From Mesorhizobium xinjiangense (lineage in GTDB: Bacteria; Pseudomonadota; Alphaproteobacteria; Rhizobiales; Rhizobiaceae): 52,010 bases of DNA. Below the pieces are notes generated by a model. The model was given only the letters and a program-made list of their open reading frames with translations. It had not been told where the DNA came from and searched no databases. A program made the position numbers and the translations under genes. The stretch spans positions 1 through 52,010 of the forward strand of contig NZ_WOAC01000029.1 of assembly GCF_009749525.1 (NCBI RefSeq), read 5' to 3'. Positions 41,574 through 51,217 of this stretch are shown in pieces. Within the stretch, counting starts at the first letter, position 1. Every line of letters starts with the position of its first letter.

Positions 41574-42854
41574 CTACTCGGCAGCAATCGGCCTCGAGGC
41601 GTCCACCAGCGTGCGCCAGTCTATCTCCTTGGAATAGACTCCTTCGCGTGAAGCAATGTGTGCCTGCGGAACGCGACGCTCCTCGGTGCCGATCGCCCTA
41701 CCGCCTTCTGCTACCTTGCGTGCGGCATCAACCATGAGACGTCGAAACTCGACGATTGCCAGATCCGATGCGCCAAGAACATCGCTCGTCCGATCGACAA
41801 TCGGACCCATGCTTACCCACATAACGATGTCCTGGTTCGGAATCCCCTTCACACCTGTAAAATTTCCCGCTTTCATGGCCTCCCTGTCCTGCAGGAAGTC
41901 ATTATCGAGATTGCGTTTGGGTCGCCATTTGTGGTCGACGTCCTCGCCCGGCACGGCGTGGTTGAAGCGACGCCACTCCTCGGTGCTCGGTACGTTCGGA
42001 CCGCCCCAGGCAATGAAATGAAAGGCTGTCTCCACATCGTTGATTGGCACAATGACGCTGGCGACCCTGTAGTTGTTGTTGGGCGGTATCAGCGAATAGT
42101 AGGGCGCCACGTATTCCGTGATCCGAAGATAATGATGCGTGCCGGCATTCTTGATCGGCTTTCGGATGGCCGCATAGTGGAAACCATAGCTGGTGGTTTC
42201 GGTCTGCATTCTCGGCGCCTTGTCCGTAGACGGTCTGTACCAAGCCTTGTCATCGGCCGATGCTCCCTCAACGCGGGCCGGCTTCATATCAGAGGAATGT
42301 AGAGACGAGGAGTGTGCGCTGTCGATCTGCCCCTCGTGGATCTGCGCCCAATTGGCCGGCACACGGATCTTGAGGATTGAAACCGGCGTGTCTGCCGCCG
42401 GAGCGAAGGCAGGCGGATCAAATTCAGGCATCCGCTCCTTGTCTCCGAGCCACGCCCAAACGAAGCCACCCCATTCGCGAACGGAATAGGCGCGTGCCTT
42501 GACCTTGTTCATCAGTGGACTGCCTTCGGGCTCCGATGACATTGCCACTACGTTGCCGTCCACGTCCATCTTCCAGCCATGATAGAGGCAGCGCAGCCCG
42601 CATTCTTCATTTCTGCCGAACACGAGCGAGGCACGACGATGCGGGCAGAGTTCGTCGAGTAGTCCGACACGCCCCTTCGTATCCCGAAAGGCCACGTAGC
42701 TTTCACCAAGAATCTCAACCCGCAGCGGCTTGCAGTCGGGCTCCGCGACCTCCTCTACGAGACAGACAGGCGTCCAGTGCTGGCGCATCAATCGCCCCAT
42801 TGGCCTGTCGGGGCCGACACGCGTGAGAATGTCATTCTCTTCTGGCGTAAGCAT
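41574..42854 (-). CDS. phthalate 4,5-dioxygenase-type Rieske oxygenase
   Basis: Terminal oxygenase expected to form a cis-dihydrodiol from an aromatic acid, probably phthalate. 426 residues. Rieske ligands are C70, H72 (CPHRRASL), C89 and H92 (CLYHGW). The mononuclear iron site has D178, H181 and H186 (DSAHSSSLH), with a later aspartate near DNDFLQDRE. The pattern GPIVDRTSDVLGASDLAIVE near 360-380 is typical of the phthalate/vanillate alpha-only oxygenase group, so no beta subunit is needed. The ATG at 42854 follows GGAGG by four bases. Divergent from the reductase gene. Vanillate- or isophthalate-like substrates cannot be excluded. Confidence 0.87.
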   Translation of the reverse strand: MLTPEENDILTRVGPDRPMGRLMRQHWTPVCLVEEVAEPDCKPLRVEILGESYVAFRDTKGRVGLLDELCPHRRASLVFGRNEECGLRCLYHGWKMDVDGNVVAMSSEPEGSPLMNKVKARAYSVREWGGFVWAWLGDKERMPEFDPPAFAPAADTPVSILKIRVPANWAQIHEGQIDSAHSSSLHSSDMKPARVEGASADDKAWYRPSTDKAPRMQTETTSYGFHYAAIRKPIKNAGTHHYLRITEYVAPYYSLIPPNNNYRVASVIVPINDVETAFHFIAWGGPNVPSTEEWRRFNHAVPGEDVDHKWRPKRNLDNDFLQDREAMKAGNFTGVKGIPNQDIVMWVSMGPIVDRTSDVLGASDLAIVEFRRLMVDAARKVAEGGRAIGTEERRVPQAHIASREGVYSKEIDWRTLVDASRPIAAE

Positions 42855-42877
42855 GATTCCTCCTCGAGGCCGTATAA

Positions 42878-42889
42878 TTAGCAATCTAA
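42878..42889 (-). promoter_or_regulatory. TTAG-N4-CTAA operator, oxygenase side
   Basis: On the minus strand this reads TTAGATTGCTAA, identical to the site at 50281-50292. It lies 24 bases upstream of the oxygenase start codon, in its leader or promoter. One of four such sites in the island; see the finding on the shared operator. Confidence 0.7.
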
Positions 42890-42900
42890 GCATGATTAAG

Positions 42901-42916
42901 GCATCTTCCGAGATGC
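42901..42916. promoter_or_regulatory. dyad between the two divergent operators
   Basis: GCATCT-TCCG-AGATGC, a perfect 6-bp dyad lying between the two TTAG-N4-CTAA sites of the oxygenase/reductase gap. It could bind a second regulator; no other support. Confidence 0.3.
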
Positions 42917-42925
42917 GTCCAGCCG

Positions 42926-42954
42926 TTGACACAAAATAGTTAGTTTTCTAAGTA
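42926..42954 (+). promoter_or_regulatory. promoter of reductase-dehydrogenase-decarboxylase operon, with operator
   Basis: TTGACA (42926-42931), 17-base spacer, TAAGTA (42949-42954): a good sigma-70 promoter about 30 bases before the reductase start. The palindrome TTAGTTTTCTAA (42940-42951; TTAGAAAACTAA on the other strand) overlaps the spacer and -10, where a bound repressor would block polymerase. Confidence 0.7.
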
Positions 42955-42990
42955 CACACCTGCGACACGAGGAGGAGCGCAGCGCAGTCG

Positions 42991-43941
42991 ATGAACGAAA
43001 CCAGAGAAACGATTAGGTTGACGGTCGAAGGGCGCCGCAAGCTGACCCCGACAATCACCGAATTCACTCTCGTGCCGAAGGACGGCAGGACGTTGCCGTC
43101 CTACGATCCCGGCGCACATGTGACGGTGCAGACGCCATCTGGCGCAAAACGGCGCTATTCCCTTGTCGGACCTGGCGAACAGCCCGGGCGCTATGTAATC
43201 GCGGTCAAAAAGGAGCCTCAATCGCGTGGCGGATCGCAGTCGATGCATGACGGGGCCATGGAAGGCATCGAGCTCCTCGTTGAAACGCCGGAAAACGAAT
43301 TCCCGCTCAAGGACGCGCAGAAATACCTGCTGATCGCCGGCGGCATCGGAGTCACGCCGATCTACGCCATGGCCCGCCATCTTGCGGATCGGGGCAAGCC
43401 CTTCGAGCTCATCTACTGCACGCGCAGCGCCGAAGATGCGGCCTATCTGGGCGAGATGACGGCGGAATATGGTGATCGTCTCCTCGTTCATCACGACGAC
43501 GGCGATCCCGAAAAGATCTACGACTTCTGGGATCATTTCGCCGAACCGCAGAACATGCACGTCTATTGCTGCGGGCCGAAGCCGCTTATGGAAGAGATCA
43601 AGGCGATCTCGGGCCACTGGCCCGAGGGCCGAGTCAATTTCGAGGATTTCAAGCCGATCGACGTGGTTCGCTCCGACGATGTGGCCTTCGACGTGAAACT
43701 GGCAAAATCCGGTACGACTGTCACCGTTCCTGCCAACCGCTCGATTCTGGAGGCCGTGCGCGACAGCGGTGTGCCAACGGTCAGTTCGTGCGAAAGCGGC
43801 ACCTGCGGCACATGCAAGACCCGTCTCGTTTCCGGCGATGCAGACCATCGCGACATGGTGCTGATGAACGAGGAGAAGGACGCCCACATCATGATCTGCG
43901 TTTCGCGCGCGCGCAGCGGAGACCTTGTCATTGACCTGTGA
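42991..43941 (+). CDS. phthalate dioxygenase reductase-type protein (FMN, 2Fe-2S)
   Basis: Passes electrons from NAD(P)H to the Rieske oxygenase. 316 residues in the order FMN domain (RRYSLVG, 54-60), nucleotide domain (AGGIGVTPIYAMARH, 116-130; CCGPKPLM, 193-200), then a C-terminal plant-type ferredoxin with C267, C272, C275 and C303. This class IA order is that of phthalate dioxygenase reductase and vanillate demethylase VanB. The gene overlaps the dehydrogenase gene downstream. The ATG at 42991 has GGAGGAGCG some 14 bases upstream. Confidence 0.9.
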   Translation: MNETRETIRLTVEGRRKLTPTITEFTLVPKDGRTLPSYDPGAHVTVQTPSGAKRRYSLVGPGEQPGRYVIAVKKEPQSRGGSQSMHDGAMEGIELLVETPENEFPLKDAQKYLLIAGGIGVTPIYAMARHLADRGKPFELIYCTRSAEDAAYLGEMTAEYGDRLLVHHDDGDPEKIYDFWDHFAEPQNMHVYCCGPKPLMEEIKAISGHWPEGRVNFEDFKPIDVVRSDDVAFDVKLAKSGTTVTVPANRSILEAVRDSGVPTVSSCESGTCGTCKTRLVSGDADHRDMVLMNEEKDAHIMICVSRARSGDLVIDL

Positions 43942-45124
43942 CACTGCCCCTGTCGGTGTCGGCGTCATCGGTCTCGGACGCGGATTCGTTCTGATGCTGC
44001 CGGCGTTCAGGTCCGATCCGCGCCTGCGCCTTGTCGCCGCCTGCGCCCCGCGCGAGACGTCCCGTTCGGCGTTTCGCAACGAGTTCGGCGGCAACGTCTA
44101 CGAGGACGTCGAACGCCTGTGCCGGGATCCGGCCGTAGAAATCGTCTACGTGGCCACACCCCATCAACTTCATTGCGAGCATGTGATTGCTGCGGCAAAA
44201 GCCGGCAAGCACGTCATCGTCGACAAACCGCTGGCCATAACGCTCGAGGACGGCGTTCGCATGGTCGCGGCCTGCCGCGAGGCTGGCGTACATCTCATCG
44301 TCGGGCCGAGCCACAGTTTCGACGCGCCGGTCGGCGTGGCGCGCCGCCTGATTGAAAGCGGAGAGTACGGCGCGGTGCGCATGATCCATGCCCTGAACTA
44401 TACCGACTTCCTCTACAGGCCCCGGCGCCCAGAGGAACTGCGTACCGAGTTGGGCGGCGGCGTGCTTTTCTCACAGGGCATCCATCAGATCGACATCGTA
44501 CGCCTGCTGGCCGGCGGCATGGGCACAAGCGTCTTAGCGATGACCGGCAAATGGGATCCCGACCGCCCGACCGAGGGTGCCTATTCGGCGCTGGTCTCGT
44601 TTTCCGGGGGCACCTTCGCCTCGCTCACCTATTCGGGCTACGCCCATTTCGACAGCGACGAATGGATGGGCTGGACCGGGGAACTCGGCAACGAGAAAGA
44701 TCCGAATGCCTACGGCGACGCGCGCCGCAAGCTCGCCACAGTCGCCTCGCCCGAAGAGGAGGCGCGGCTGAAATCGACGCGCACCTACGGCTCCGGCGAC
44801 ACACCGAAGACGGCGACGCGCCATGAGCATTTCGGGCCGATTATCGTTTCATGTGACAAGGCCGATCTCAGGCTCAGCCCGAAGGGCGTGCATGTTTATG
44901 GCGACACACAGCGCGGATTCGTTGCGGCACCGGACATGAAGTTTCCCCGTGCAGCCGTCACGGACGCGATCGTCGCCACCGTTCGCGGCGACGTATCGCC
45001 GCCGCAGACCGGGGCATGGGGCCTCGCCAGCATCGAACTCTGCCTCGCGATCCTGTCCGCTGCGAAGAGTGGCCAGCCAGTCGCGCTGAAACACCAGACC
45101 GGACTGAAGGAAACGACGCGATGA
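43925..45124 (+). CDS. Gfo/Idh/MocA dehydrogenase (phthalate dihydrodiol dehydrogenase-like)
   Basis: Likely oxidises the cis-4,5-dihydrodiol of phthalate to 4,5-dihydroxyphthalate. 399 residues. N-terminal NAD site VGVIGLGRGF (12-21), then DKPLA (100-104) matching the family's EKP, and GGGVLFSQGIHQIDIVRLL with the catalytic-region histidine. Pht4 of Pseudomonas belongs to this family. It starts at a TTG (43925) or the TTG two codons later, overlapping the reductase stop by about 17 bp, and its stop overlaps the decarboxylase start as ATGA. The substrate is inferred from the operon. Confidence 0.83.
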   Translation: MSLTCDTAPVGVGVIGLGRGFVLMLPAFRSDPRLRLVAACAPRETSRSAFRNEFGGNVYEDVERLCRDPAVEIVYVATPHQLHCEHVIAAAKAGKHVIVDKPLAITLEDGVRMVAACREAGVHLIVGPSHSFDAPVGVARRLIESGEYGAVRMIHALNYTDFLYRPRRPEELRTELGGGVLFSQGIHQIDIVRLLAGGMGTSVLAMTGKWDPDRPTEGAYSALVSFSGGTFASLTYSGYAHFDSDEWMGWTGELGNEKDPNAYGDARRKLATVASPEEEARLKSTRTYGSGDTPKTATRHEHFGPIIVSCDKADLRLSPKGVHVYGDTQRGFVAAPDMKFPRAAVTDAIVATVRGDVSPPQTGAWGLASIELCLAILSAAKSGQPVALKHQTGLKETTR

Positions 45125-46113
45125 GTGAACTGAAGCTATCGCTGGCAATGGGCGATTACGACCGCACGCGCGCGATCAGCGACGGCCGGGTGCACATCGA
45201 CGGTGTCGACCCGACCTGCCTGCTCATGTCGCCGGAGGAGATGTTTTTCCGCGCCTTCCGCCACCAAGCGTTCGACATCAGCGAATTGTCGCTCTCGTCC
45301 TACTCGATCTCGGTTGCTCGCGGAGAGCCGCATTACATCGCCATCCCCGTGTTCCTGTCACGTGCCTTCCGCCACACCTCGATCTACGTGCGAAAGGATC
45401 ACGGCATCGATGCACCGGCCGATCTTGTGGGGCGGCGCATCGGCATCGCTGAATACCAGCTCTCGGCCAATGTCTGGTTCCGGGGTATTCTCGAGGACGA
45501 ATTCGGCGTGAAGCCGTCGCAGATCGAATGGGTACGCGGCGGCATGGACACGCCCGGTCGACCGGAGAAGATCAAGGTCGAGCTTCCGCCGGAAATCCAC
45601 GTCTCCGAAGCACCGGAAGGTAAAACGCTCAATCAGATGCTCATCGACGGCGAGATCGACGGCTTCGTCGGGCCGCGCGCACCGCGCTGTTTCGACGAGG
45701 GCCATCCACAAATTGGCCGCCTGTTTGCCGACACGATCGCTGAAGCCGAGGCCTATTACCGAAAGACGAAGATTTTCCCGATCATGCATGTGCTAGGCGT
45801 GCGCCGTTCGCTCGCAACGCAGCATCCCTGGCTGCCGGGTGCACTCCTGAAGGCCTTTGCGCATGCAAAGACTCTCGCCGAAACGGCGCTATCGGACACA
45901 TCGGCCACCAAGGTCACAATGCCTTTCGTGGAAGACAACCTCGCCCGGACACGCGCGCTGATGGGCACCGACTTCTGGCCCTACGGGCTGGCGCTCAATC
46001 GCCATGTCATCGAGACCTTCCTCGGCTACCACGCCAAACAAGGTCTCTCGCCGCGCAAGGTGGAGGTCGACGAACTGTTCCACCCGGCGACGGTCGAGGC
46101 CTACAGCCTTTGA
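45121..46113 (+). CDS. 4,5-dihydroxyphthalate decarboxylase
   Basis: Removes one carboxyl group to give protocatechuate. 330 residues, a periplasmic-binding-like fold without signal peptide, as in Pht5/OphC. Segments: RTRAISDGRVHIDGVDPTCL near the start, FDISELSLSSYSISVARGEP (about 51-70), AIPVFLSRAFRHTSIYVRKD (about 73-92), GRRIGIAEYQLSANVWFRGI and the C-terminal DFWPYGLALNRHVIETFLGY. The ATG at 45121 is fixed by the ATGA overlap. No protocatechuate ring-cleavage gene is in the window, so further breakdown must be encoded elsewhere. Confidence 0.88.
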   Translation: MSELKLSLAMGDYDRTRAISDGRVHIDGVDPTCLLMSPEEMFFRAFRHQAFDISELSLSSYSISVARGEPHYIAIPVFLSRAFRHTSIYVRKDHGIDAPADLVGRRIGIAEYQLSANVWFRGILEDEFGVKPSQIEWVRGGMDTPGRPEKIKVELPPEIHVSEAPEGKTLNQMLIDGEIDGFVGPRAPRCFDEGHPQIGRLFADTIAEAEAYYRKTKIFPIMHVLGVRRSLATQHPWLPGALLKAFAHAKTLAETALSDTSATKVTMPFVEDNLARTRALMGTDFWPYGLALNRHVIETFLGYHAKQGLSPRKVEVDELFHPATVEAYSL

Positions 46114-46139
46114 GCCGTCAGGCGAAGGAATAATATCCG

Positions 46140-46571
46140 ATGAAGTTCTCCCCAGGCGATATCGTCGAAATCCGCACCCCCGGCGGGTTCTCCTACGTGC
46201 AGGTGACGCACAATCACCCCTCCTACCCGGAGGTCGTGCGCGCCCTGCCCGGCCTGCACGGCAAACGACCCACCGAGTTCGACATGCTGGCACGTTCGCA
46301 AAGCGCCTTCGTCGCCATGATCCCGCTCGGCGGAGCGATCGAGAAGAGGAGGATCGAAGGCGAGCGGGTCGCCAGGACCAGCATTCCAGAGGAACACGCC
46401 GCCTTCCCGACGTTCCGCATGCCGATCCACGACAAACAGGGCGGGGTCGCCTATTGGTGGTTCTGGGACGGACAGGGCCTGCGCTACAGCACGGAACCCG
46501 ACGCGGACGCCGAGAAATACCCAATGCGCGAGGTGATGTCAGTCGAGGCTTTTCTCAAGAAGCTCGCCTGA
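46140..46571 (+). CDS. small protein, Imm26-like fold suspected
   Basis: 143 residues, no signal peptide. The N-terminal MKFSPGDIVEIRTPGGFSYV plus VTHNHPSYPEVVRALPGLHG reminds me of the Imm26 immunity-protein family (GDI-EIPT--GFAYxQxTHxHP), and FVAMIPLGGAI fits its next strand. There is no toxin gene beside it. It lies 26 bp after the decarboxylase gene, in the same operon, and converges with marR (12-bp gap). A role in catabolism or as a stray sensor-like domain is open. I am unsure of the family. Confidence 0.6.
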   Translation: MKFSPGDIVEIRTPGGFSYVQVTHNHPSYPEVVRALPGLHGKRPTEFDMLARSQSAFVAMIPLGGAIEKRRIEGERVARTSIPEEHAAFPTFRMPIHDKQGGVAYWWFWDGQGLRYSTEPDADAEKYPMREVMSVEAFLKKLA

Positions 46572-46583
46572 CGCCCTGCCTGC

Positions 46584-47075
46584 CTATTCGGGTCTCCCGA
46601 CCTGTTCACTCATGCGGGTCATCAGATTGTCCTGGATCGCCTTGAGGAACTCAAGAAACGCCAGTCTCTCCCGCTCCGAAAACCCCTGCACGGAATCCTC
46701 GACGACTTCCTTTGCGAGCGGCATCAGCTCGGCCCTGAGTGCCTTCCCCTTTTCAGTCAGGTAAACATTGATCTTGCGCCTGTCGTCGACGTTCTTGATC
46801 CGCGTGACGAGGCCGGAACGTTCCATCGACTTGATTGCCGTCAGCGTGGTCGGCTCCATTGTGCCGACCACAAGGGATAGTTCGCTCTGGGTCATTCCGT
46901 CTTGGTGCCACAGTGCACGCAGGAAGTACCACATTCCAGGCGTCACGCCATGCGGCCCGATCTTCTCTTGGAGATAGCGCTGCAACAGGCGGTGGGTCTG
47001 TCGGATCTGGTAGCCGACACTCTCGTCGAACGGGAGCACTGCGTCCCTCTCCTTGCGGGATTCCGTCGCGCCCAT
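46584..47075 (-). CDS. MarR family transcriptional regulator
   Basis: DNA-binding regulator of 163 residues with winged helix: DESVGYQIRQTHRLLQRYLQ (dimer helix), MTQSELSLVVGTMEPTTLTA (about 60-79, helix-turn-helix), KSMERSGLVTRIKNVDDRRK (about 81-100, wing with the DxR motif) and a C-terminal dimer helix. MarR proteins often respond to aromatic acids. It lies 66 bp after the TRAP permease stop on the same strand and is probably in that operon. It is the best candidate to bind the four TTAG-N4-CTAA sites; no such site was seen directly in front of it. Confidence 0.9.
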   Translation of the reverse strand: MGATESRKERDAVLPFDESVGYQIRQTHRLLQRYLQEKIGPHGVTPGMWYFLRALWHQDGMTQSELSLVVGTMEPTTLTAIKSMERSGLVTRIKNVDDRRKINVYLTEKGKALRAELMPLAKEVVEDSVQGFSERERLAFLEFLKAIQDNLMTRMSEQVGRPE

Positions 47076-47141
47076 CGCTACGCCACCCCTTCACCCTTGA
47101 ATTGCATCTCGACTCCTTGCCGAGCGTAACTGCGGGCTCGA

Positions 47142-49073
47142 CTATTCGCCAGCCTCTGCCTTGCCCGGCAGTGCATGGCCGTTGGTCTGGCCATTCCCCT
47201 GGAACTTCATAATTGCGACGCCCATCGCCGCCACTGCGAGCGCCGCTGCCAGAGGGACGTAGCCGACTACGAGGAACAGCAGGCCCGACGCAAGAAATGC
47301 AAGCCGAGGCAGGGCCGGAATATGAGTGTTCCAGTACCCTTCCGCCGCGATTGCTACCATGACGAGACCGCAAACCGCGTTGACCGTGGCGAAGACGATC
47401 TCCCACACGCTCCCCTCCAATAGGAGCCCATGATTGTAGACAAAACAGAACGGGATCAGGAAGGCACCGATTGCGATCTTTACCGACTGCGCCGCAATCT
47501 TCAGCGGATTGGCGTCCGCAATCGCGCTTGCCGCGTAGGCTGCGACCGCGACCGGCGGCGTCAGCGCCGACATGACGGCGAAATAGAGCAGGAACAGGTG
47601 TCCGGGCAGGTCCTCCACCCCGAGAGAGCGCATGACCGGCGAGATCAGAACTGCCGCCAGGATATAGGCGCTCGGCGTTGGCATGCCCATGCCCAGCAGT
47701 GTCGTCAGGATCGCCGCGATGGTGAGCGATGAGAACAGGTCGGCACCCGACAGCAGGAAGACGAGGGCCGAGAATTTCGACGCGAGACCCGTCATCGTGA
47801 TGCCACCGATGACGAGGCCGGCCGCCGCGCAGGCGCCTGCGACAGGAACGGTGCGAAGGCTCGTCTCGGCCAGGATGTCGTAAATCGCGCGCGGGCCGAG
47901 TCGCGTCGACTTGCGAAACATCGATACAAGCAGAACCGCTGCGACGCCGTAGACGGCCGCATAGGTCGGCGTGTAGCCATCCATGAGTGCCCAGGTGATC
48001 GCGGCAAGCGGCACGATGAAGAGCCCTCCCTCGCGCAGCGTGGTGCCAAGTGTCGGTATCTGCGAGCGGTCGACCGGCGCGAGGTTGTTGCGCTTGGCGC
48101 GCAGATGCACCTGCAGGTAGATCGGCACGTAGTAGAGCAGCGCCGGAATAAGGGCTGCAAACGCGATGTCGACATAATCGATGCCGGTATATTCGGCCAT
48201 GATGAACGCCGCTGCGCCCATCACCGGCGGAAGCAGACTGCCGCCGGTCGAGGCCGCGACTTCCACGGCACCGGCGAATGCCGGCCGATATCCCATCCGC
48301 TTCATCATTGGGATGGTCACCGCGCCCGTCGTCACGACGTCGGAGGTAGGACTGCCCGAGATGGTTCCGTAGAGTCCCGAAGAGATGACGGCGATCTTGG
48401 CCGGACCACCCGGCGAGCGCCCGGTCAGATAGGCCGCGATGTTGAAGAAGAAGGCCGATCCGCCCGCTTTAGCCAGCGTCGTCCCGAACAGGACGAAGAG
48501 GAATGCATATGTCGCAGCCACGCGCAGCGGAACGCCGAACAGCCCGTCGGTCGTGAAGACCGTGATGTCGAGGAAGTGCCGATAGGTGATCAGACCATGT
48601 CCGAGCACCCCGCCGATGCGGTCGCCGAACAGATTATAGGTAAGGAATATGATGACGATCAGCGTCAACCCGACACCGACCGTGCGCCGCATCGCCTCGA
48701 TCGTCAGCGCAAGGATCAGCGTGGCGAAGATGATGTCGTAGGTCGACAGTGGGTCTAGCAAGGTAATGCGCTGGGCGATGACACCGGCCTGCGAGACGAA
48801 ATAAATGCCGGTCACCGCGGCAAGCAGTGCCAGGATCCAGTCGTGGAACGGGATATGGTCCCGGTCGGAATTTGCCGTCGGCCCGACGAGCACGAAGGTT
48901 AGGACGAGCATCAACGACAGGAACGTCATGATGAGGGTCAGCGAGTCGGCGCGAGAGAACGCGGCCGCATAGACCGTCCAGACGGCGGTGGCGGCCGCAA
49001 AGGCCTTGACGAGGTGACCAATCAGTCCATCGGGAGAGCGGCGTACCCCGGTGTCGAAGAAGATATTTATCAT
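47142..49073 (-). CDS. TRAP transporter fused permease (TAXI type)
   Basis: Secondary importer membrane part with DctQ-like and DctM-like portions fused. About 643 residues from an ATG at 49073; a GTG at 49151, 9 bp after the solute-receptor stop, would add 26 residues, and neither has a good ribosome site. It has about 15-17 hydrophobic segments; the DctM part contains GSAFFFNIAAYLTGRSPGGP, SGSPTSDVVTTGAVTIPMMK, STGGSLLPPVMGAAAFIM and LGMGMPTPSAYILAAVLISP, all typical of the TRAP 4TM/12TM family. It works with the TAXI receptor gene upstream. Likely cargo is the aromatic acid degraded by the island. Confidence 0.9.
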   Translation of the reverse strand: MINIFFDTGVRRSPDGLIGHLVKAFAAATAVWTVYAAAFSRADSLTLIMTFLSLMLVLTFVLVGPTANSDRDHIPFHDWILALLAAVTGIYFVSQAGVIAQRITLLDPLSTYDIIFATLILALTIEAMRRTVGVGLTLIVIIFLTYNLFGDRIGGVLGHGLITYRHFLDITVFTTDGLFGVPLRVAATYAFLFVLFGTTLAKAGGSAFFFNIAAYLTGRSPGGPAKIAVISSGLYGTISGSPTSDVVTTGAVTIPMMKRMGYRPAFAGAVEVAASTGGSLLPPVMGAAAFIMAEYTGIDYVDIAFAALIPALLYYVPIYLQVHLRAKRNNLAPVDRSQIPTLGTTLREGGLFIVPLAAITWALMDGYTPTYAAVYGVAAVLLVSMFRKSTRLGPRAIYDILAETSLRTVPVAGACAAAGLVIGGITMTGLASKFSALVFLLSGADLFSSLTIAAILTTLLGMGMPTPSAYILAAVLISPVMRSLGVEDLPGHLFLLYFAVMSALTPPVAVAAYAASAIADANPLKIAAQSVKIAIGAFLIPFCFVYNHGLLLEGSVWEIVFATVNAVCGLVMVAIAAEGYWNTHIPALPRLAFLASGLLFLVVGYVPLAAALAVAAMGVAIMKFQGNGQTNGHALPGKAEAGE

Positions 49074-49160
49074 GGGCGCGATGCCGATCCCTTGCAGTTC
49101 TGCAATTTCTTGAAACTGGGCCGGCGGGCGGTCACCCGCCCGGGCCGGCACTCGCAGCCG

Positions 49161-50147
49161 TCAGTAGCCGGCACCCTCGTAGATCTTCTGGGCGGCCTGA
49201 TGGTACGGAACGGTCTCGGCACCGGCCATCAGCTCGACAGTGAGCGGGGCCATCGCCTTGTGAACGTCCTGCAGTTGTTCGACATTGTCGACGAGCGCCT
49301 TGGTGATGTCGTGCACCATCTGCTCGTCGGCGTCCTTGCGCACGAAAAGCTGTGCCGAGACGGTCACCGTCAGCACGTCCTGACTGGTCCAGTCATAGGC
49401 TTCGTTCTTGATCGTGTAAGGCTTGATGTCCCATTCATCGATCACCTTCTGGGCGTTTTCCTCGCTGATCGGAAGCAGATCGACATCGATCGACGACGCG
49501 AGTTCGCGGATCGAGCTGTGGTTCACGAACAACGAATTGAGGATCATGTCGATGCGACGGTCGCGCATCAAGTCGCCCTGCTCGCTGGAAGCCGCGAACT
49601 GCACGTCGCCGCCCCACGACTTGATCTGATCGGGGCTGGCATCGATTGCATTGAGCATGGATTCGCCCACCGAGCTGACGACGTTGCCTCGCCGGTTGAG
49701 GGCGATGCGGATCGGCAGTTTCTGGTCCGCAATGTCCTCCAGCGTTTTGACATTATGCTCCTTGGCGTAGTCAGCGTTGATGATCGCCTGCATCGGCGCC
49801 CAGGTGTAGATCTGGGCAATCGTCGCCATGCTGTCGATGGGCTGCTTGAACGGCGGCTTGCCGCCAAGCGCCAGCTTCGCCTCGGCGTCATGGATGATCG
49901 CAAGATCGCAAGTCTTCTGGTCGAGCAGCCCGACATTGGCGAGCCCCCCGCCCGAGGTTTGGTAAGTCACCGTCGAACCCGGGAACGATTTCTTTACGGC
50001 CGCATCGATGCCCGCCCCGAGAAGGCTCCACAGGCCGCCCGGGCTCGCACCGCACAAAGTCAGATTGTAGGTTTGCGCCGATGCCGGCGTCAGCGTAGCC
50101 AAAACGAAGGCTGCGCCTGCGAAGGCGCCAGTGATCAATCTCTTCAT
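49161..50147 (-). CDS. TAXI family TRAP solute receptor
   Basis: Periplasmic binding protein for the TRAP permease, 328 residues. Signal peptide MKRLITGAFAGAAFVLATL...ASA (cut about 24). The mature part begins TYNLTLCGASPGGLWSLLGA and has the TAXI-type TSGGGLANVGLL (about 64-75) and a C-terminal DVHKAMAPLTVELMAGAETV helix followed by the PYHQAAQKIYEGAGY tail. GGAGG lies before the ATG at 50147. First gene of the TAXI-TRAP-marR operon; an operator lies 22 bp upstream of the start. Confidence 0.9.
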   Translation of the reverse strand: MKRLITGAFAGAAFVLATLTPASAQTYNLTLCGASPGGLWSLLGAGIDAAVKKSFPGSTVTYQTSGGGLANVGLLDQKTCDLAIIHDAEAKLALGGKPPFKQPIDSMATIAQIYTWAPMQAIINADYAKEHNVKTLEDIADQKLPIRIALNRRGNVVSSVGESMLNAIDASPDQIKSWGGDVQFAASSEQGDLMRDRRIDMILNSLFVNHSSIRELASSIDVDLLPISEENAQKVIDEWDIKPYTIKNEAYDWTSQDVLTVTVSAQLFVRKDADEQMVHDITKALVDNVEQLQDVHKAMAPLTVELMAGAETVPYHQAAQKIYEGAGY

Positions 50148-50168
50148 GAACTCCTCCCAGAGTAATCA

Positions 50169-50180
50169 TTAGATTACTAA
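50169..50180 (-). promoter_or_regulatory. TTAG-N4-CTAA operator, transporter side
   Basis: TTAGATTACTAA on the plus strand, just downstream of the predicted -10 of the transporter promoter. One of the four sites; differs from two of the others by a single base in the spacer. Confidence 0.7.
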
Positions 50181-50188
50181 CTTTCTTG

Positions 50189-50217
50189 ACACTAAGGTTG
50201 AGCCGAGGCCTTGTCAA
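50189..50217 (-). promoter_or_regulatory. promoter of TAXI-TRAP-marR operon
   Basis: On the minus strand TTGACA (50217-50212), 17-base spacer, TAGTGT (50194-50189). The operator at 50169-50180 would overlap the transcript start region. The -10 is imperfect, hence moderate confidence. Confidence 0.5.
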
Positions 50218-50243
50218 CAAAGGAGCCTTCTGTCCGAGCACCC

Positions 50244-50272
50244 TCGACACTCCTTAGAAACCGGGATATATC
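50244..50272 (+). promoter_or_regulatory. promoter of class II aldolase gene
   Basis: TCGACA (50244-50249), 17-base spacer, TATATC (50267-50272), with the operator at 50281-50292 at the expected transcript start. The leader to the start codon would be about 210 bases long. Confidence 0.45.
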
Positions 50273-50280
50273 GCAAATCA

Positions 50281-50292
50281 TTAGATTGCTAA
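50281..50292 (+). promoter_or_regulatory. TTAG-N4-CTAA operator, aldolase side
   Basis: TTAGATTGCTAA, identical to the oxygenase-side site at 42878-42889 read on its own strand, about 8 kb away. It faces the aldolase-family gene. Nothing else is seen in the 50293-50491 leader. Confidence 0.7.
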
Positions 50293-50491
50293 TCTCTGTT
50301 TCGAGCACAAGTTGATGAAACGCCGAAGCAGGCTCTCGACGCGTTCTCGGGAGGACAGTTTCTGGACCTGAAGCTGCTGGACGAGACATGTCGGCGTCGT
50401 TCGGCCTTTCGATCGTGACGCGAGCCATCATGCATGCGGCCTGCACCGTGTGATTGTGGACCATGGATCATTGCCGAGGGAGAAGAACGAT

Positions 50492-51217
50492 ATGAGCGAA
50501 AATACACTGCGGGAATACGCCGTACGGGATTTGGTCTTGGCAAATCGGATCTTGGCCAGGGAAAATGTGATCGACGGCTTCGGACACGTCAGCGTGCGTC
50601 ACCCCACCAATCCCGGTCGTTTCCTACTGTCACGCTCTTGCAGCCCGGAAATCGTCGTGCACGACGACATCATGGAGTTCGAACTTGACGGCGCACCGGT
50701 TGCCGACGACCAGCGCAAACCCTATGCCGAGCGCTATATCCACGGCGCAATATATATGGCCAGGCCTGATGTGAATGCGGTTTCGCATCATCACGCACAT
50801 TCCGTTATTCCGTTCTCGCTGACGGACATTGCGCTGCGACCTGCATTCCACATGGGCTCCGTCATGGGAGCCGACGTGCCCGTGTGGGATAGCCGGCCTG
50901 AATTCGATGACACGAACATGCTCGTCGACACGCTCGAAATGGGGCATTCCCTGGCGCGCACGCTTAGGAGCGGCCAGACCGCCCTTCTCCGCGGCCATGG
51001 TGCGGTATGCGCAGCACACGATTTGAGGGCCATCTGCATGATATCCATCTATATGCGTGACAACGCGCAGCTCATCCTCGACACCCTACCCTTCGGGGAG
51101 CCGAAGTACCTTTCACCCGGCGAGATCCGGAAGACAGCCGCAATGTTGCTCGGCGAGATGCCATTGACGCGGGCGTGGAACTACTGGATGGCGAGAGCCG
51201 GTTTCCAAGGCATTTGA
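50492..51217 (+). CDS. class II aldolase/adducin family protein
   Basis: Metal-dependent lyase of 241 residues, related to fuculose-phosphate aldolase and to decarboxylases that act on dihydroxy-aromatic acids. Motifs: NVIDGFGHVSVRHP (about 25-38), YAERYIHGAIYMARPDVNAV (about 78-97) with the acid residue, HHHAHS (about 99-104) and LRGHGAV (about 168-174) giving three zinc histidines. ATG at 50492, behind GGGAG; an upstream in-frame ATG at 50450 is less likely. It shares the island operator, so it probably has a catabolic job. It could be a second decarboxylase or a lyase on a ring-cleavage product; sequence alone does not say. Confidence 0.8.
   Translation: MSENTLREYAVRDLVLANRILARENVIDGFGHVSVRHPTNPGRFLLSRSCSPEIVVHDDIMEFELDGAPVADDQRKPYAERYIHGAIYMARPDVNAVSHHHAHSVIPFSLTDIALRPAFHMGSVMGADVPVWDSRPEFDDTNMLVDTLEMGHSLARTLRSGQTALLRGHGAVCAAHDLRAICMISIYMRDNAQLILDTLPFGEPKYLSPGEIRKTAAMLLGEMPLTRAWNYWMARAGFQGI

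Follow-up and report, generated by a model that had tools for sequence, protein, structure and literature searches.

The characterised regulators of bacterial phthalate breakdown include IphR for isophthalate, TphR for terephthalate and, for ortho-phthalate, the IclR-type OphR of an actinobacterium (PMC13040137, PMC8222616; here and below, papers are cited from excerpts). IphR and TphR are local regulators of their genes (PMC13040137, PMC8222616), belong to the IclR family and have other motifs than the one considered here (PMC8222616). OphR was characterised in Rhodococcus sp. DK17 (PMC8222616, citing Choi et al. 2015), an actinobacterium; its motif is CGCGTACGCG, and neither its protein family nor its site is related to those described below. 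For the phthalate 4,5-dioxygenase clusters of proteobacteria, no regulator with a described operator was found among the literature matches listed. MarR-family genes have been reported in such surroundings: phtR of Sphingobium yanoikuyae SHJ lies in a cluster with phthalate dioxygenase genes (PMC6051330), a Thalassospira MarR gene does likewise (PMC9604089), and a MarR protein named OphR, from the phthalate cluster of the Han 2008 thesis, is listed in PMC5031561. All three figure there as annotations or primer targets, with no operator in the excerpted passages. Among the literature matches listed, no description of an operator for a phthalate-cluster MarR protein was found; the 2008 thesis may hold one.

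The locus analysed here appears to be of this kind. In a 52,010-base stretch of the Mesorhizobium xinjiangense genome (contig NZ_WOAC01000029.1, hereafter the window), a marR gene lies beside genes for an apparent phthalate 4,5-dioxygenase, its reductase, a dehydrogenase and a decarboxylase. This island carries four copies of a palindrome of the form TTAG-N4-CTAA. Very probably, these are operators of the island's own MarR protein, whose occlusion of the promoters would be relieved by phthalate or one of its products.

Operator sites and their conservation

Within the window, TTAGAWWRCTAAY is matched exactly at four places, 42877-42889 and 42939-42951 on the minus strand and 50169-50181 and 50281-50293 on the plus strand; 100 shuffles contained no match. 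When two mismatches were allowed, the only additional matches were two of the same four sites read on the opposite strand. The pattern scan thus returned the 12-base cores exactly where the original prediction had placed them, and bore out its remark that two of them share all 12 bases on opposite strands, these two being the outermost sites:

42878..42889, minus strand: putative operator 1, TTAGATTGCTAA, shortly past the -10 of the putative oxygenase promoter
42940..42951: putative operator 2, TTAGTTTTCTAA on the plus strand and TTAGAAAACTAA on the minus strand, covering the end of the inferred reductase promoter's spacer and the first three bases of its -10
50169..50180, plus strand: putative operator 3, TTAGATTACTAA, 8 base pairs (bp) downstream of the inferred -10 of the TAXI-TRAP-marR operon
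50281..50292, plus strand: putative operator 4, TTAGATTGCTAA, 8 bp downstream of the inferred -10 of the aldolase gene

The core of the pattern, TTAG-N4-CTAA, occurs in five places in the 5.26-Mb genome, four of which are the island sites; the fifth (C3:85349) falls inside an open reading frame of 188 amino acids. It had been held that many random copies elsewhere in the genome would speak against a regulatory role, and there is just this one. The binomial probability of four of the five copies lying within the 9.6-kb island is about 6e-11. A control using the reversed pattern (38 copies in the same genome) was dropped as an unfair yardstick, since its base order and frequency differ, and was replaced by same-letter permutations of the half-site.

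A wider comparison was made with 49 islands holding an oxygenase start, reduced to 40 by shared protein words and, where named, alpha-, beta- and gammaproteobacterial. In a test blind to the motif, 256 four-base half-sites were combined with gaps of 0-10 bases, and the resulting 2,816 gapped palindromes were sought within 200 bp upstream of the oxygenase. TTAG-N4-CTAA ranked first, being present in 33 of the 40 islands; the next three palindromes (14, 11 and 7 islands) overlap the same site, and the best of the others reach only 4 and 3. Taken whole, the islands (712 kb) hold 93 copies, whereas base composition predicts 4.5; with the half-site letters rearranged in the eleven other possible ways, the counts are between 0 and 16. 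At least one copy occurs in every island but one (39/40; the exception is L099). In fifteen annotated plasmid islands, 28 of the 29 sites lie outside annotated genes, by a hand count over incomplete gene tables that left out the near-duplicate L088, the unannotated L095 and the site-less L099 and L101. The one exception (L085) lies in a reductase gene whose annotated start overlaps that of the oxygenase. The 46 sites within 200 bp upstream of an oxygenase, which were selected by their half-sites, share a symmetric A+T-rich extension, and their middle is mostly ATAT, though widely variable.

Each of the four window sites appears to lie in or just downstream of a core promoter, in a geometry that is conserved in related islands. 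The promoters, as read from this conservation, are:

42893..42921, minus strand: inferred oxygenase promoter, TGGACG-17-TAATCA, from the conservation of its -35
42926..42954, plus strand: inferred reductase promoter, TTGACA-17-TAAGTA, TTGACA being invariant in 11 of 11 aligned islands
50189..50217, minus strand: inferred TAXI promoter, TTGACA-17-TAGTGT, its TTGACA kept in all six aligned islands and its spacing read by hand
50244..50272, plus strand: inferred aldolase-gene promoter, TCGACA-17-TATATC, with CTCGACA in all six aligned islands and the spacing again read by hand

The oxygenase/reductase gap was aligned over 11 of the 40 islands, chosen by hand for divergent oxygenase and reductase genes and a closer marR, and its two back-to-back promoters align in all of them. 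On the reductase side, the start of the operator lies in every island 15 bases ahead of the end of the hexamer behind the 17-bp spacer; the operator thereby spans the last part of the spacer and reaches three bases into the -10. The TTGACA-17-TAAGTA promoter that had been predicted to overlap a site therefore keeps both its TTGACA and its relative operator position in 11 of 11 islands. On the oxygenase side the -35 is TGGACG in ten islands and TAGACT in one, followed after 17 bp by a hexamer that is A+T-rich in most; the operator lies 1-3 bases past this hexamer in ten islands and overlaps it by one base in L057. The two -35 hexamers are 4 bp apart in nine islands and 6 bp in two. Across the eleven, the middle four bases of the operators vary and the half-sites are kept, with a single mismatch (the oxygenase-side operator of L009). 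Thirteen islands have paired sites upstream of the oxygenase; the spacing of the pair is 58-63 bp in all of these but L078, where it is 21 bp. For the TAXI/aldolase gap six islands could be aligned, two of them near-duplicates (L009 and L010). TTGACA and CTCGACA are conserved in all six, with -10-like hexamers 17-18 bp away by hand reading; in the window the operator is found 8 bases beyond the -10-like hexamer. The three sites other than that of the reductase also each follow a -35/-10-like pair. A generic promoter scan flagged none of the four promoters (3 hits against 3.2 expected), so that the promoter calls rest on conservation and on reading by eye.

The MarR protein and its association with the site

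The island regulator has a MarR winged-helix domain (PF01047, 40.5 bits against a gathering threshold of 24.6). Its one-chain AlphaFold model, with a mean predicted local distance difference test score of 86, consists of six helices (residues 20-42, 46-57, 63-70, 74-86, 108-128 and 134-159) and a wing (strands 90-94 and 102-106). The predicted recognition helix is that of residues 74-86, which starts with Glu-Pro-Thr; a proline stands at this place in 50 of 58 aligned proteins, SlyA and repeated rows included. On the NCBIfam SlyA model the protein scores 38 bits, below the cut-off of 120, and the IclR family is not among its Pfam and NCBIfam hits. A scan of viral contigs gave no relative of this MarR, and a viral source was rejected.

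The sites are conserved beside marR in related islands, as the original prediction had proposed to check. With tblastn (cut-offs of E 1e-15 in one island set and 1e-8 in the other), the fetched piece contains a MarR relative in 38 of the 40 islands, L082 and L091 being the exceptions. All ten relatives from genome contigs, which are 57-81% identical to the window protein, have at least one TTAG-N4-CTAA in their flanks, and the pairing of site and marR recurs in named plasmids of alpha-, beta- and gammaproteobacteria. In a sample of 297 genomes of the family, own genome included, marR is present in 10 (E <= 1e-30) and the oxygenase in 11 (E <= 1e-120), and all ten marR genomes are among the eleven. 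The remaining oxygenase genome is 83% complete and in about 670 contigs, and its 6.4-kb contig ends inside the gene for the 143-amino-acid protein listed below. The ten marR genomes hold 52 copies of the site, 37 of them within 10 kb of a marR. Of ten genomes without marR, nine hold 0-3 copies and one (G017) holds 8; three genus mates without marR have 1, 2 and 0. The sphingomonad islands L099 and L100 also count in favour of MarR as the binder: there the oxygenase-linked MarR has asparagine in place of the helix proline, and no site lies within 200 bp upstream of the oxygenase. The sites of L100 are instead beside a second MarR (57% identical), hydrolase genes and a TonB-receptor gene.

A proposed switch and its alternatives

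We propose that a MarR dimer would span the TTAG-N4-CTAA site within or shortly after each core promoter and so shut out RNA polymerase. The block would fall in the spacer and the -10 at the reductase operon; at the other three units (oxygenase gene, TAXI-TRAP-marR operon, aldolase gene) it would fall a little past the -10. Phthalate, or a compound derived from it, would bind the dimer, upon which all four units would open together. As the last gene of the apparent TAXI operon, marR would also limit its own level. The earlier proposal of one repressor, the island MarR, over both import and catabolism fits the finding that both carry the site and that it is conserved beside marR. The evidence supports this reading well; the switch would be of a familiar, ordinary kind, yet one with wide conservation.

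Several observations weigh against this proposal. The case is built on sequence, from which binding and repression by MarR, as well as the effector, are deduced. Among the remaining half-sites that contain no more than one G or C, ACAT (as ACAT-N4-ATGT) comes out highest, with 29 sites in 24 islands. Seven of the 40 islands have no TTAG-N4-CTAA within 200 bp upstream of the oxygenase. Five of these do carry a site, either where the operon starts or a short way beyond the 200-bp limit: it precedes a hemerythrin gene 5' of the oxygenase in L086 and L094, it precedes an MFS or reductase gene in L092 and L093, where the oxygenase is not the first gene, and it lies at about -210 and -243 in L091. 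Both named gammaproteobacterial plasmids (L091 and L092) are therefore among those that miss the strict test yet carry sites, whereas the sphingomonad islands L099 and L100 have no site upstream of the oxygenase. Only a single site is present in 11 of the 40 islands; the four-operator layout is therefore that of closer relatives. The bare 8-bp pattern also has a background, with 8 copies in G017, which lacks marR, 15 in G331, 13 in G406 and 14 in G1026. G331 and G406 have MarR relatives that share the helix motif (Met-Glu-Pro) and no site in the 19 kb around marR, and the bare word is therefore not proof of regulation in every genome; in distant relatives away from phthalate genes, the relation between protein and site may loosen.

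The association with marR has its own gaps. Island L082 (genome G1026) has the site and no MarR relative in its fetched 19 kb; the annotated MarR gene of L091/L103 is about 15 kb from the oxygenase and outside the plasmid tblastn hits of the window protein; and L083 has no MarR closer than 27% identity. A set of oxygenase islands without marR was sought as a control and none was found. Plasmid islands in which marR gave no hit at E <= 1e-20 had to be rejected for this purpose, as the first four viewed all have annotated MarR genes (40% identical relatives in L084 and L088, 37% in L089 and the above-mentioned 27% in L083); all four carry the box. Finally, genomes of one lineage are non-independent trials.

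Of the alternatives, the one that survives best, improbable as it seems, is that MarR acts at these sites as an activator or countersilencer. Such is the role of SlyA, a regulator with the same form of box that activates known E. coli targets by antagonising H-NS (PMC5797941, PMC6401476). However, the operators lie in the spacer and -10 or just past the -10 of the inferred promoters, where a dimer would block polymerase, and SlyA itself also represses ydhI and its own expression (PMC6401476). Slightly less probable again is that the sites belong to another MarR/SlyA-like protein encoded elsewhere, with the local MarR regulating something else. A genome search with the MarR query did give 27 candidate regions at first look, of which 12 were scored and one was over the cut-off, and the form of the site is common to the distant SlyA. 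Nevertheless, the clustering of 37 of 52 sites within 10 kb of marR, the 0-2 copies held genome-wide by genus mates that lack it, and the recurrence of the pairing on plasmids of three proteobacterial classes all argue for the local protein. Chance A+T-rich words of promoter DNA, which is indeed A+T-rich, would also occur now and then in marR-less genomes (0-3 copies in nine of the ten scanned, 8 in the tenth), but such an origin is next to inconceivable and was rejected on the shuffles, the genome count, the 2,816-palindrome test, the excess over same-letter half-sites (93 against 0-16) and a position relative to TTGACA that is fixed to the base in 11 of 11 islands. We thus retain the island MarR as the likely repressor.

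Island genes and related regulators

The genes of the island are:

41574..42854, minus strand: oxygenase; PDB 7fjl group, 593 bits over residues 1-416; LigXa_C and Rieske domains
42991..43941, plus strand: phthalate dioxygenase reductase; PDB 2pia, 321 bits
43925..45124, plus strand: Gfo/Idh/MocA dehydrogenase (PF01408), presumably for phthalate 4,5-dihydrodiol, a role suggested by cluster context
45121..46113, plus strand: 4,5-dihydroxyphthalate decarboxylase; PDB 9jp7, 431 bits
46140..46571, plus strand: 143-amino-acid protein; no NCBIfam family, best Pfam E 0.28
46584..47075, minus strand: MarR-family regulator (PF01047, 40.5 bits), the inferred binder of the four operators
47142..49151, minus strand: fused TRAP transporter permease; TIGR02123, 578 bits
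49161..50147, minus strand: TAXI solute-binding protein; TIGR02122, 142 bits
50492..51217, plus strand: class II aldolase/adducin protein; PF00596, and NF053537 at 66 bits, under the cut-off of 200

The PDB matches of the oxygenase, reductase and decarboxylase, together with the Gfo/Idh/MocA dehydrogenase, identify these genes by homology as a phthalate 4,5-dioxygenase pathway to protocatechuate. We take 7fjl to be the phthalate dioxygenase of Comamonas testosteroni, and 7fhr, in the same PDB match list, is named a putative phthalate 4,5-dioxygenase. Since no site occurs in the 66-base gap that separates the TRAP gene from marR, marR looks like the last gene of a single TAXI-TRAP operon; this type of transporter has been reported as an ortho-phthalate importer in denitrifying bacteria (PMC13040137). 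The 143-amino-acid protein, which has no significant Pfam or NCBIfam match and no convincing PDB match, is found in 18 of the 40 non-redundant islands, the window included, mostly adjoining the decarboxylase gene and with 33-64% identity. The aldolase/adducin protein appears from its family scores to be a distant relative of 3,4-dihydroxyphthalate decarboxylase. The island would thus have a second decarboxylase-like gene (50492-51217), with a putative operator of its own, beside the existing 4,5-dihydroxyphthalate decarboxylase.

Other islands contain additional genes of interest. Of the 16 distinct annotated plasmid islands inspected, 8 (L083, L085, L086, L094, L096, L099, L100 and L103) have nadC, the gene for quinolinate phosphoribosyltransferase, annotated among the phthalate genes or no more than about 15 kb away. 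As phthalate resembles quinolinate and inhibits this enzyme, the island nadC may be a phthalate-tolerant spare copy. A gene of this kind, phtD, enhances the growth of strain DBO1 on phthalate (PMC6051330). Oxygen-binding proteins (hemerythrin domain, truncated globin) are encoded repeatedly in phthalate islands: upstream of the oxygenase in L086 and L094, at L091:2191 and at L087:14210. The genes in L086, L094 and L091 have the box immediately before them. Hemerythrin-like genes have already been noted in phthalate clusters (PMC5031561). In a Sphingobium plasmid (L100:1324-15694), a region with an inverted duplication has sites by alpha/beta-hydrolase, serine-hydrolase and TonB-receptor genes and the 57% MarR relative, possibly placing phthalate-ester hydrolysis and uptake under the same switch. 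In a Rhizobium leguminosarum plasmid (L090:8001-9277) the oxygenase match comes in two tblastn pieces with no annotated gene; this oxygenase may be frame-broken.

On balance we lean towards a broader view, in which TTAG-N4-CTAA, read by one MarR lineage, is the common phthalate box of aerobic proteobacteria. New genes would then enter its regulon by acquiring the box, as islands pass from host to host and exchange their transporters (TAXI-TRAP, TTT, MFS), ester hydrolases and accessory genes (globin, hemerythrin), and the box could be used to find unknown phthalate genes. Phthalate is the acid set free from common plasticisers, and a defined putative operator with its likely repressor is a directly testable switch, a candidate part for a phthalate biosensor and a sequence handle on further genes of phthalate uptake and ester hydrolysis.

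With respect to known regulators, the original prediction knew of no described MarR site of this form for phthalate genes. Among the literature matches, the operator words turned up in no phthalate-related paper, these matches being judged unrelated from titles and the starts of abstracts, and to that extent the statement holds. The form itself is not new, and the idea of a new kind of site was rejected: the form is that of the SlyA box. DesR, which governs vanillate and syringate genes in Sphingobium SYK-6, is also a MarR repressor of aromatic-acid genes that is released by its substrate, and its operators are inverted repeats at -40 to -26 and +23 to +37 (PMC6888825). Their sequence, GTTTGTGT(C/A)ACATAC, is unrelated to TTAG-N4-CTAA, and a DesR-like reading of the window sites was rejected because of this difference.

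The closest likeness is to SlyA and RovA of enterobacteria, members of the MarR family with the same TTAG-N4-CTAA form of site. The SlyA consensus is TTAGCAAGCTAA (PMC5797941), and the promoter region of slyA in E. coli K-12 carries TTAGCTTGCTAA, also of this form. The recognition helices start alike, with a proline followed by a hydroxyl residue: P75-T76 (Glu-Pro-Thr) in the window protein and P61-S62 (Gln-Pro-Ser) in SlyA, whereas SlyA R65, which presumably contacts DNA, corresponds to Thr79 here. SlyA is inhibited by aromatic carboxylates (PMC6401476). In their roles the two differ: SlyA is a wide-ranging countersilencer, while the MarR protein of the window would be a local catabolic switch.

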